This document shows, one piece after another, positions 8,508 through 60,425 of a stretch of 64,000 nt of DNA (position 1 is its first letter; each line of letters starts with the position of its first letter). The position numbers and the translations under genes were made by a program. The notes below the pieces were generated by a model. The model had not been told where the DNA came from and ran no database searches. It was given only the letters and a program-made list of their open reading frames with translations. Where the stretch lies: assembly GCF_014196205.1 (NCBI RefSeq), contig NZ_JACIDE010000014.1, forward strand, positions 1 to 64,000. Direction: 5' to 3'. Source of the DNA: Anoxybacteroides voinovskiense (GTDB taxonomy: Bacteria; Bacillota; Bacilli; Bacillales; Anoxybacillaceae).

Positions 8508-8579
8508 TGAAACTTTTTAATGCGCTATTCGTCTAAATAAATGGATTTCATTCCAGAAATTATAAAAAGGGGGATTACA

Positions 8580-10829
8580 ATGCAGAAAGATTGGCTTTCG
8601 AAGTTTTTAGTAGCTGCTGTGCTTGTTACAAGCACAGGACCGATTACCGCAAAAGCAGCGGAGAAGGAACTATATTTACCTTCACAGCAAAAACTGTATC
8701 AACAAGTAGGCGTCAATTCTACAGCGATTGATATGGAAGAAGTGAAGATTTCGAAAGAACAAGCGATTGAAATTGCGAAAAAAACAATTAACATTGACAA
8801 AGGGTATAAATTTCAGGGCATAACTTTTTCGACACAATGGTATGGAAATAAGCCGGTGTGGCAAATGTCGTGGTATAAAGAAGATAAAGGATACCATGGA
8901 ATTTATATAACGGTAAACGCTCAAACAGGAAATGTTGTAAATATTAATATTTATCATGATAAAGAAGGAAACATGCCATTTCCACCGAAAGTAAGTTATG
9001 ATCAAGCAGTGGATGTAGCGAAACAATACATTCAAAAGCTGTATCCAAAGAAATTAAACGAACTTGTCATCGATGAGCAATTGAAAAAACAGCAAAGGAG
9101 ATTACCGTACGGAGAACGACGATTTTACGCGATCCGTTTTTATCAAATGGTCGATCATGTACCATATTATGAAAACAATATTATGATAACGATTGATGGG
9201 AATGGGGAAATTCGGAACTTTGAATATAATTGGAATGATGAAGTAACATTTGAAAAGAAGGAAAACGTCATTTCTTTAGACGAAGCAAGAAAGTTGTTAA
9301 AAGACCGCATGGAATTAGAGTTACGTTACCAAATCGACTATTCATCGAAGCAGGCTCCAAAATTAATCTACGTACCGAAAACGAATGCATATCCATATTA
9401 TCAAGCGAACTTTAATGCCATTATCGACGCTCATACCGGAAAATTTATTGATATGTACGGAAAACCGGTGGAGCAAACAGCACCGATAGACGATAAGCCG
9501 TTAGCAGAAAGCGCTACTCCTTTGCCGCCGCGAAGCAAAGAATTAACGCAAAAAGAAGCCATAGAAGCAGTGAAACGAACAATGGAGCTGCCGGATTCTA
9601 TCGAACTTGATTCGGTGAATTACGAGGACCGGGGGGAAACTTCTGTATGGGTGCTTGGCTTTCGAGATAATGGAGAAGATACCAACTATATGTATGCAGA
9701 AATAAATGCAAAAACAGGGGAACTTACTCGATTTGACCGCAATGTGATGTACTATAAAGAATCGGAAGCAAACAAAAACCCGCAGGTGAACTACACGAAA
9801 GAACAGGCACTTGAAATCGCAAAAAATTTTGTAAAAAAAGTGGCTCCTGATAAAGTGGATCGTTTATATGCTACGTTGCCGCAGGAAGTACGGTATGACA
9901 GCAAATCGAACCCGCTCTTTTACGAAATGTACTTTTATCGCAAAGAAAATGGAATTCCAGTACAAGGACAAGGAATAAGTGTAGCCGTTTCTGCGGAAAC
10001 AGGAAAAATTATTCGTTTCTTTACCGAGTGGCGTAACGTATCGTTTCCGTTGCCAACCAAAGTCGTTTCGCTAGAAAAAGCAGAAGAAATGTATTTAGAG
10101 GATAAAAAGCTTGCCTTAAGCTACTTTACGACCTTAACGGCGGATGAAAAAAGAAATAGCACAGCTATTTTAGTTTATCAACCAACCCCGTCTTGGGAGG
10201 AAAAATATTTAGATGCCGTTGATGGGAAATGGAAAGATGCTTCCACTGGAAGGGTAGTCGACGACCAAAATGTAGCAACAGATATAAAAGGACATAAACA
10301 AGAACAGGCGCTGCAAGCAATGATTGATTACAATATATACGATGTGGAAAACGGGAAAGTATATCCAGAGCGAGTAGTGACAAAAGGGGAATTTGTCGAG
10401 GTTGTCATGAGAGCGATTGGGGATTACGGAACGTGGTATAATGAGAACGCAGCCGCACCATTCAAAGATGTAAAAAAAGAGGCAGACTACTACCCGTATT
10501 TACAAAGAGCGGTTGACCGCAGATTAATTAAAGTAGATGAAGAATATTTTCACCCGACAAGCCAAGTAACGCGAGAATTTGTCGCCGTGACCCTTGTTCG
10601 TGCGTTAGGATATGATAAGCTTGCTTCGCAAACCGATTTGTTTCCGATTTCGTTTAAAGATGCAAATAAGATTCAACATAAAGGTCATGTTGGGTTGATT
10701 AGTAAATTAAAAATTATGCCTGGAACGAAATCGAAAGAGTTTCAACCATCCTCTTCGTTAACAAGGGCTGATTTAGCAGTGATTATTTATCGGTTTATGA
10801 ATAAGTATCCAGATATCGCAGGAAATTAA
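8580..10829 (+). CDS. Secreted YcdB/PepSY-like surface protein with SLH domains
   Basis: A 749-residue exported protein. The ATG at 8580 has GGGGGATT upstream and starts a signal peptide ending near ITAKAAE. The body has repeated YcdB/YcdC (PepSY-like) units: each begins with a SKEQAIEIAKK/SYDQAVDVAKQ/TQKEAIEAVKR/TKEQALEIAKN-type helix and is followed by a W-strand and an A-TG turn. The last 170 or so residues form three S-layer homology modules (VTKGEFVEVVMRAIG, VTREFVAVTLVRALGY, LTRADLAVIIYRFM). It is probably bound to the secondary cell-wall polymer. PepSY-type repeats often occur in protease propeptides or inhibitors; no protease domain is visible here. Its TAA is shared with a dispersed repeat. 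Confidence 0.8.
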   Translation: MQKDWLSKFLVAAVLVTSTGPITAKAAEKELYLPSQQKLYQQVGVNSTAIDMEEVKISKEQAIEIAKKTINIDKGYKFQGITFSTQWYGNKPVWQMSWYKEDKGYHGIYITVNAQTGNVVNINIYHDKEGNMPFPPKVSYDQAVDVAKQYIQKLYPKKLNELVIDEQLKKQQRRLPYGERRFYAIRFYQMVDHVPYYENNIMITIDGNGEIRNFEYNWNDEVTFEKKENVISLDEARKLLKDRMELELRYQIDYSSKQAPKLIYVPKTNAYPYYQANFNAIIDAHTGKFIDMYGKPVEQTAPIDDKPLAESATPLPPRSKELTQKEAIEAVKRTMELPDSIELDSVNYEDRGETSVWVLGFRDNGEDTNYMYAEINAKTGELTRFDRNVMYYKESEANKNPQVNYTKEQALEIAKNFVKKVAPDKVDRLYATLPQEVRYDSKSNPLFYEMYFYRKENGIPVQGQGISVAVSAETGKIIRFFTEWRNVSFPLPTKVVSLEKAEEMYLEDKKLALSYFTTLTADEKRNSTAILVYQPTPSWEEKYLDAVDGKWKDASTGRVVDDQNVATDIKGHKQEQALQAMIDYNIYDVENGKVYPERVVTKGEFVEVVMRAIGDYGTWYNENAAAPFKDVKKEADYYPYLQRAVDRRLIKVDEEYFHPTSQVTREFVAVTLVRALGYDKLASQTDLFPISFKDANKIQHKGHVGLISKLKIMPGTKSKEFQPSSSLTRADLAVIIYRFMNKYPDIAGN

Positions 10830-10976
10830 GAAAAGCGCAAAGCGCCCGCCTATCGGCGAAGATCGCACAAGCCCCACCGAGGAGGCTTCGCCGCCGCAGC
10901 GTGGGGCGGAGCGACTCGAGCCGATGGCGCTTGGAGCTAGACAGCGCTCCACCTAATCGTAAAATTTTATACTTTC
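10827..10976 (+). repeat. Dispersed structured repeat, copy 1
   Basis: About 150 bp nearly identical to 58956-59106. It begins TAAGAAAAGCG, where TAA is the stop codon of the SLH protein gene, and contains GGAGCTAGACA near its right end. Inner complementary arms (AGCGCC, ATCGGC and GCCCCAC with their complements downstream) give a long branched hairpin. Shorter relatives lie at 13192-13229 and 33659-33780. Confidence 0.85.
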
Positions 10977-10987
10977 CTATCTTTTGA

Positions 10988-11022
10988 CAAAAAGCGATGC
11001 GGGTTTTCCGCATCGCTATTTT
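10988..11022 (-). terminator. Terminator after the DUF3813 gene
   Basis: The arms AGCGATGCGG and CCGCATCGCT are flanked by A- and T-runs on both sides, so the hairpin could act in both directions between the convergent genes. Confidence 0.7.
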
Positions 11023-13191: not shown

Positions 13192-13229
13192 TGTCTAGCT
13201 GGGCAACCCAGTCGTTTCCGCTTTTCTTA
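13192..13229 (-). repeat. Dispersed repeat family, minimal 38-bp copy
   Basis: Read on the minus strand it begins TAAGAAAAGCG, using the TAA stop of the yitW-like gene, and ends with GCTAGACA. Between them lies only a small hairpin (CTGGG-TTG-CCCAG). Both ends match the 150-bp copies, so this looks like a core-less member of the same family. Confidence 0.7.
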
Positions 13230-33547: not shown

Positions 33548-33658
33548 ATAACCGTATATACGTGCCGTTGCAAAACTATATATTGTATCCCCTTTGAAAA
33601 GAGGCGACCTTTTCGATCAGTCCCATATATTTTTTCAGTCGCTTTTACTTTTCTTGAT

Positions 33659-33780
33659 TGTCTAACTCCGGCTCCTAGCTGCTCGGGGGTCAAATAACCT
33701 TCCCCCTCGAGGTGGCGAGCACCTCGAGGGGGAAGAACATTCGCCCCATCGCAGCTGGACAGTCGCCTTCGCTTTTCTTA
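33659..33780 (-). repeat. Dispersed repeat family, 122-bp copy with long hairpin
   Basis: On the minus strand it begins TAAGAAAAGCG with the TAA stop of fnr and ends GGAGTTAGACA. The core differs from the 150-bp copies: it holds a 16-bp perfect hairpin (CTTCCCCCTCGAGGTG and complement) with a 5-base loop. The 33548-33658 stretch before it shows no gene. Confidence 0.75.
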
Positions 33781-34491: not shown

Positions 34492-34559
34492 GTCTTTTCA
34501 CCTCGTGGTGGAATTTTTCTCGTTTAGCATCAACATCGCCTTCGCTTTTCCCTATTTTT

Positions 34560-58217: not shown

Positions 58218-58958
58218 ATGTTATATCTTCATGATATTTGGGTGAATTGGTTTGAAGGGGAAGAGAATGGATATAACGTCTGCCACTTTCATGAATGGCG
58301 AAAAGACGATCAAGTCGAATTGCTTGATCAAGTCCCGTTGTTAAAAGTATCTTCAGCCTTATTTCATTACATCGAAAATAGTTTATCGGAAATTCCGCAA
58401 TCGCTTCTTGACAATGTGTATCAAAAAGCGTATGTTCGTAAAAACCACGAGCGTATTCCGCTAGACTACGGGTTTGTCGTGACCGATGGGAAAGGGATTT
58501 TAGCGGTAGATACGCTCGGGTATAACATTCCAATTCGCAAAAGCCGCCTAATTCCAAGACAAGAACAACTCGTTTATGAAATGGCTGCCGGACAACAAGA
58601 AGAAACGTACCCGCTCCCACCATATGACAAAGAGTACCATATTTTATCGCCTGCGCCGGAGCTCATGAGCGGTCTGACGCGCAAAGAGCGGCAATTAAAG
58701 CAGCTATTATTTATGGCGTTAGATCAGCTTTATTCAACGAAAAATGTCGCGGAAGTGCGCTATTGGTATACGGAGTGGGCGCCGCATAAATATCCATTGA
58801 TTCAACAAATGTCGTTTGACGAAGCGTGGTGTCAATTATACGAGGAAACGAAGCACGGTTGGTCGGAAAAACATGTGCAATTATGCGAGAAACTCGTCAA
58901 AGGACAACCATTCTTTGAGAAATTATGGGAAATAGAACAAGAGCCACACGTGAAATAA
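58218..58958 (+). CDS. yjbA: YjbA-like UPF0736 protein
   Basis: A 246-residue soluble protein ([20 protein letters not shown] ... [19 protein letters not shown]) of the UPF0736/YjbA family, of unknown function, in its usual place before trpS. I chose the ATG at 58218 with GTGAGGGG upstream; a longer frame from 58062 would overlap the preceding gene. Its TAA is the first triplet of a dispersed repeat. Confidence 0.82.
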
Positions 58959-59106
58959 GAAAAGCGCAAAGCGCCCGCCTATCGGCGAAGATCGCACAAG
59001 CCCCACCGAGGAGGCTGTTGCCGCCGCAGTGTGGGGCGGAGCGACTCGAGCCGATGGCGCTTGGAGCTAGACAACGCCCCACCTAATCGTAAAATTTTAT
59101 ACTTTC
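58956..59106 (+). repeat. Dispersed structured repeat, copy 2
   Basis: Nearly identical to 10827-10976 apart from a few substitutions and one indel near the middle. It begins TAAGAAAAGCG with the TAA of yjbA and ends with the shared tail AAAATTTTATACTTTC. It can form the same branched hairpin. Confidence 0.85.
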
Positions 59107-59113
59107 TTACCTT

Positions 59114-59145
59114 ATAAAAAGATGCCCCTTTTACGGGACATCTTT

Positions 59146-59148
<3 letters not shown>
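59114..59148 (-). terminator. Terminator of trpS
   Basis: AAAAAGATG/CATCTTTTT stem with inner CCC/GGG pairs, flanked by A- and T-runs. Confidence 0.75.

Positions 59149-60425
<1,277 letters not shown>

Follow-up and report, generated by a model that had tools for sequence, protein, structure and literature searches.

In a stretch of 64,000 nucleotides from Anoxybacteroides voinovskiense (the window), four copies of a dispersed repeat begin exactly at the stop codon of the preceding gene, which raises the question of whether the element recognizes this codon or encounters it for another reason. The original prediction proposed either an insertion targeted to gene 3' ends or a processing or termination element that recruits the stop. 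We favour, with a probability of about 0.7, a family of non-autonomous hairpin elements with interchangeable cores, in which one type (E) resides at TAA triplets beside terminators and a second (AB/C) forms arrays with a turnover of units.

Repeat copies in the window

All four copies are found at the predicted places and start with TAAGAAAAGCG, and the exact 11-mer occurs at these four window sites only. In each copy the TAA is a gene stop, with the open reading frames ending at 10829, 58958, 33778 and 13227 matching the Pfam families SLH/PepSY/DUF4901, DUF3603, Crp/cNMP_binding and FeS_assembly_P, respectively. The predicted G(C/T)TAGACA segment is present in all four as AG(C/T)TAGACA. The proposed starts proved exact, whereas the two long copies extend about 8 bp further than described.

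These two long copies are E units on the forward strand. The first begins with the stop codon (10827–10829) of an SLH/PepSY gene (8541–10829), where the sibling genome G006 contains the empty site GAAATTAATAAAAAGCG. Its hairpin body (10830–10943) reaches from GAAAAGCG to AGCTAGACA and its tail (CCACCTAATCGTAAAATTTTATACTTTCCTATCTT..., 10944–10984) is followed by TGA and the terminator, with an A-tract and a terminator-like hairpin adjoining at 10989–11020 (no strand assigned). The second unit starts with the stop of yjbA (DUF3603, 58956–58958), whose protein is 100% identical to its counterpart in Anoxybacillus sp. HOT.CON.20. It continues with a hairpin body (58959–59073) and a tail (59074–59114) that ends in CTTACCTTA, next to a TAA at 59115–59117 and to an A-tract and terminator-like hairpin at 59116–59147 (no strand assigned). 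The remaining copies are located on the minus strand. One is an AB-type unit with core A (33659–33777), which is directly preceded by the TAA stop of a Crp/Fnr gene (33778–33780) and whose array closes with the degenerate terminal direct repeat GAAAAGTAAAAGCGACTG (33636–33653). The other is a core-less AB-type unit of 35 nt (13192–13226) past the stop of yitW (FeS_assembly_P, 13227–13229).

A hairpin had been proposed for every copy. This holds for three of them, with z-scores of –3.9, –3.5 and –7.8 relative to shuffled sequences (computed with the tails of the long copies largely omitted; for the second copy, 1 of 200 shuffles folded as well), but not for the 35-nt copy (z of –0.67). The only match in the window above the Rfam gathering score is a T-box leader (60185–60421, minus strand) located upstream of a minus-strand gene (59146–60135), and no known RNA family was assigned to the repeats.

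Unit layouts and conserved structure

The genome, with a size of 3.23 Mb in 58 contigs, contains 56 matches to the left-end pattern GAAAAGCGNANANCG compared to 2 for its reversed control, 69 matches to the looser pattern GAAAAGCGNNNNCG (control: 20) and 91 matches to the right end AGYTAGACA (control: 16). With one 116-bp unit as BLAST query we obtained 56 pieces, and full-length identical copies are present at three places, one of them the first E unit of the window. In total, the genome contains 45 E-type loci, a count that excludes a pattern match inside a gene (L134), and 31 AB/C-type arrays. The latter number includes GAAAAGCGAAGGCG at 34537–34550 (minus strand of the window), located 5' of the Crp/Fnr gene. 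As the sibling genome G005 reads GGAAAGCGAATAAATG at this position, the match may have arisen by chance or represent a remnant.

E-type units are organized as TAA-GAAAAGCGCAAAGCGCC...GGCGCTTGGAGCTAGACA, mostly followed by the common tail CCACCTAATCGTAAAATTTTATACTTTCTTACCTT, and measure 49–179 bp up to TAGACA. AB/C-type units start with GAAAAGCGRAGGCGACTG-NNY-AGC, or with the C-type head GAAAAGCGGAGAACG, enclose one of several unrelated cores and terminate in ...GCAGCTAGACA, after which the left repeat recurs. They are found as single units, as head-to-tail arrays and as solo left repeats, and in the arrays interchangeable hairpin cores alternate with a constant repeat of 18–24 bp. At two loci of G006 (L289 and L282), E units are located just 3' of a degenerate AB solo repeat, and both layouts can thus occupy one site.

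The structure of the ends is conserved, with compensatory pairing in the stems. Among 49 distinct units from several genera, complete pairing was found for the outer stem in 22, where both sides have changed (AGCGCC/GGCGCT, AGCGGC/GCCGCT, AGTGGC/GCCACT, GATGCC/GGCATC and GGTGGC/GCCACC), and for the inner stem in 43. The evidence resides in the variable positions only, as the search pattern fixed some letters of stems and bulge. Both stems are separated by a conserved bulge, in which T(Y)GNNY faces a single A. In the AB type of the studied genome (27 units), the outer stem reads GGCGAC/GGAGCC or nearly so and contains two G-A mismatches. We also considered the variable NNY of the bulge as a guide to the flanking sequence, but the correlation of nine position pairs in 36 units (p between 0.014 and 0.95, with the copies being related) was too weak to support this proposal.

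Relation to stop codons

Throughout the genome, 42 of the 45 E loci have TAA as the triplet at their left edge. Whereas this part of the original prediction thus applies generally, the exact coincidence with a stop, found in four of four window copies, is a local feature. A same-strand stop at a distance of 0 was found at 16 of the 45 E loci (17 when L131 is included, where 243 open codons precede the unit and the gene was missed by gene prediction) and for 5 of 31 AB/C arrays. Two further E units are located 3 nt and one 4 nt past a stop. Upstream of 23 of the 45 units, gene prediction finds an opposite-strand gene (22 if L131 follows a missed gene), and at three the upstream same-strand gene is distant. 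One of the E loci (L187:3497–3574) has a tRNA-Ala directly followed by TAA and an E unit and then by a terminator. Among AB/C arrays, 18 of 31 are found between –1 and +5 nt from a same-strand stop. A distant genome, G098, contains 32 array rows that represent 30 distinct arrays, and 8 of these rows are located at –1 to +3 nt, where about 0.4 would be expected. The enrichment near stops is real, while exact coincidence with the stop is not universal. Random distances from stop codons, which had been named as the observation that would speak against the prediction, are half borne out for E units, where TAA is constant and the stop variable. A recognition or recruitment of the stop codon as such is not supported, given the units with an antisense gene or a tRNA upstream and the near-constant TAA at the left edge.

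These distances bear on a reading that we consider improbable, in which the stop itself would govern insertion or selection, either since TAA is needed as stop or since the element acts on translation termination, as described for REPs in E. coli. REPs up to 15 nt from a stop can reportedly affect translation (PMC12306157). Although the E loci at distance 0, the stop-proximal AB/C arrays and their equivalents in G098 would all be accounted for, more than half of the E loci contain a TAA without predicted stop, and in most stop-adjacent empty sites, as judged by eye, the stop is the sole TAA preceding the stem.

Empty sites and adjacent terminators

Flanks of the units were mapped to the two sibling genomes G006 and G005 at a flank identity of about 82–99%, with 40 candidates scored per sibling and 40 and 41 matches obtained for 75 segments. 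At 20 E loci we directly observed empty-site junctions in the two siblings. At L162, the sequence CCATTAA, followed by the unit and TAAAAAAGC, corresponds to CCATTAAAAAAAGC in both siblings, and similarly clear junctions are found at L136, L169 and L187. In the last case, CCATTAA, a unit ending in CTTACCTTA, and TAAGAAAAACCC correspond to the empty site CCATTAAGAAAAACCC, and its empty counterpart in G005 (L250) has flanks of 98–99% identity. At yjbA, GTGAAATAA and TAAAAAGATG enclose the unit where the empty site reads GTAAAGTAAAAAGATG. L136, L175 and L187 have an identity of 95% or more in both flanks, while L162, L169 and yjbA show like junctions at lower flank identity and the flanks at L143 (in G006), L154 and L183 have diverged. 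Slippage deletions might account for the 'empty' versions of L145 and L175.

The repeat is thus an inserted element that favours gene 3' ends, as had been proposed, although a recognition of the stop codon itself is not supported. The question of whether the insertion replaces the native stop is answered by the 14 loci next to a stop for which a relative contains the empty site, at 11 of which this stop is intact (L136, L146, L150, L152, L153, L155, L162, L169, L179 and both E copies of the window). Two others (L135 and L154) are ambiguous and at L182 the stop differs, the insertion at L182:1170–1190 coinciding with an earlier stop and the sibling gene being two codons longer. We thus reject a replacement of the stop codon as a rule. 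On the right-hand side, the triplets of the 42 E loci that have a right end comprise 22 TAA, 9 CAA and 7 TGA, with four unread. TAA is found on both sides at many loci, but as 16 of the 38 triplets that were read on the right are CAA or TGA, we do not claim a clean duplication of a 3-bp target.

A steadier partner of E units than the stop codon is the hairpin on their right. Among the 39 units with a recognizable tail (three of the 42 are tail-less and were omitted), 36 are followed by a strong terminator-like hairpin starting 0–27 nt away (6 nt on average) and three show a low hairpin score. The same score was attained in 169 of 1170 trials with shuffled flanks, and at 33 of 39 loci the hairpin was better than all 30 of its own shuffles. 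A search for the tail across the order confirmed this relationship in 15 of 20 loci, one being from the genome of the window, compared to 73 of 600 shuffles. The right end faces the hairpin for either orientation, sense or antisense, of the neighbouring gene. Most of the coincidence with stop codons thus probably arises from insertion at a TAA adjoining a terminator: as terminators in this genome often begin directly after the stop, the TAA that is used is often the stop.

In the mechanism that we favour, the constant ends would fold as a hairpin with the conserved bulge and enclose interchangeable cores. E-type units would insert as single copies at a TAA, or a related YRA, that borders the A-tract of an intrinsic terminator, with the right end nearly always oriented towards the terminator stem. 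The bulged hairpin being conserved, a trans-acting enzyme probably recognizes the folded ends, possibly as single-stranded DNA. Terminators would be targeted rather than merely tolerated, although survival bias could mimic such targeting.

An arrangement between stop and terminator, in combination with the strong compensatory pairing, would also be expected for a functional RNA element of the 3'-UTR that acts on mRNA stability or termination and is copied around under selection. Siblings, however, differ in the presence of units and in their cores at the same genes, and about half of the E units are found outside the 3'-UTR of any same-strand gene, making this proposal even less probable than a dependence on the stop. 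Considered as mobile elements, the repeats form an active family of conserved structure that would use terminators as safe harbours.

Turnover between sibling genomes

The presence of E units differs between the siblings. Among the mapped E loci (22 in G006 and 21 in G005 of 45), G006 lacks the unit at 20 and carries it at 2, whereas G005 lacks it at 12 and carries it at 9 (with L148 judged by eye). The AB/C arrays show a cassette-like turnover, as 16 of the 23 loci that were compared differ in content. The ambiguous rows L138 and L187 minus are omitted from this comparison, for which unit types were assigned automatically by short marks, with part of the rows viewed by eye. At L019 the core is A in the studied genome but B and C in G005 and G006, respectively, L029 is found as A, as A-B-C and as a solo repeat, and the fnr locus of the window, with its core A, contains A-C-B in G005. 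Among the seven unchanged rows, five are without any full unit. The arrays apparently change faster than neighbouring genes and might serve as fast strain markers.

AB/C-type units are accordingly gained, lost and swapped in place in head-to-tail arrays. Homologous recombination and slippage between copies might be the sole cause of these changes, without a dedicated enzyme, as units are bordered by direct repeats of 18–24 bp and solo repeats resemble deletion products. The three cores at L019 require a donor for each, although recombination could still provide it, and we regard a purely recombinational origin as a serious possibility, though not as the more probable one. With more reservation, and as a rather doubtful extension, the repeats might constitute an undescribed non-coding cassette system widespread in Bacillales, where hairpin units with exchangeable cores would be taken up, lost and replaced at attachment-like solo GAAAAGCGRAGGCGACTG-NNY-AGC repeats beside terminators by an enzyme reading the bulged, folded single strand.

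A candidate for the mobilizing enzyme

The genome contains two Y1 (IS200-like) transposase genes identified by Pfam, both RAYT-like (L190 and L191, on C8 and C45), which are 93% identical over 190 amino acids. Each has a neighbour that we take to be yifB/comM-like, and the segments appear as if duplicated. Relatives of these genes were found in 95 of 150 genomes, in 36 of 46 with the repeat and in 59 of 104 without it (p = 0.016). The association is not significant for genomes with at least 10 copies, 4 of 16 of which are without a RAYT-like gene (p = 0.41), and a family end is located within 1.5 kb of a RAYT gene at only 2 of 13 distinct places. With this weak association, RAYT is not established as mover, and the survey of RAYT-like genes in 150 genomes has tied no mobilizing enzyme to the repeat ends. 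The identity of the mover becomes testable in this family, as does the choice between a targeting of terminators by hairpin elements and their mere survival at such sites.

Relation to known elements and distribution

The family shares features with several known systems. In neisserial intergenic mosaic elements (NIMEs), a short constant repeat, the 20-bp inverted repeat dRS3, alternates with interchangeable longer units in intergenic arrays. Compared by description, the AB/C arrays are alike in their constant short repeat and interchangeable units, but their repeat is direct, contributes to a hairpin arm and is frequently located near stops and terminators. As in REP/BIME sequences and their RAYTs, we find structured extragenic repeats, some near stops, with a possible link to an HUH transposase. 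In contrast, the units measure about 110–180 bp, a GTAG or CGTC tag at the end of the palindrome is absent upon reading (head GAAAAGCG, other end AGCTAGACA) and, unlike in a REPtron, RAYT genes are without flanking repeats at 11 of 13 places. With its short, non-coding and multi-copy units (56 pieces matching one 116-bp unit; 45 E loci), the E family resembles MITEs and in particular, compared by description only, the mobile bcr1 of the Bacillus cereus group within the Bacillaceae. It appears to differ in the lack of a clean target duplication and in its weak terminal inverted similarity (TAAGAAAAG/CTTTCTTA and TAAGAAA..CTTTCTTA, by eye). Pneumococcal BOX elements are modular non-coding repeats with a variable number of units; by description, the present repeats are alike in both respects, but contain other modules and reside in another host. 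Group IIC introns insert beside terminator hairpins, as E units do, but the latter leave no room for an intron that includes a reverse transcriptase. Finally, the repeats might be related to Bhal-1 of B. halodurans, which is reported to have 74 bp and 36 copies (PMC2267715). Among the matches listed in searches of the open-access literature we found no description of the family, and the listed papers containing its motif strings are apparently unrelated. Taken together, the family resembles REP/mosaic elements and MITEs, without the tag of the former and with the features of the latter in part.

The repeat family is large, recently active and present in many Bacillus-like bacteria. The left-end motif GAAAAGCGNANRYGNCTNGNYNAG, a pattern that misses the shorter form in the genome of the window, is found in 46 of the 150 genomes, which span 32 of the 83 genera sampled in the order, compared to one for the reversed control, with up to 60 copies per genome and a spacing that is often about 121–127 bp. 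The E tail was detected in 17 of 150 genomes, including the one studied here, and its control in none. In another genus of the same family of bacteria, a miniature E unit of 49 bp (L365) contains both ends with almost no core and is located beside a terminator-like hairpin.
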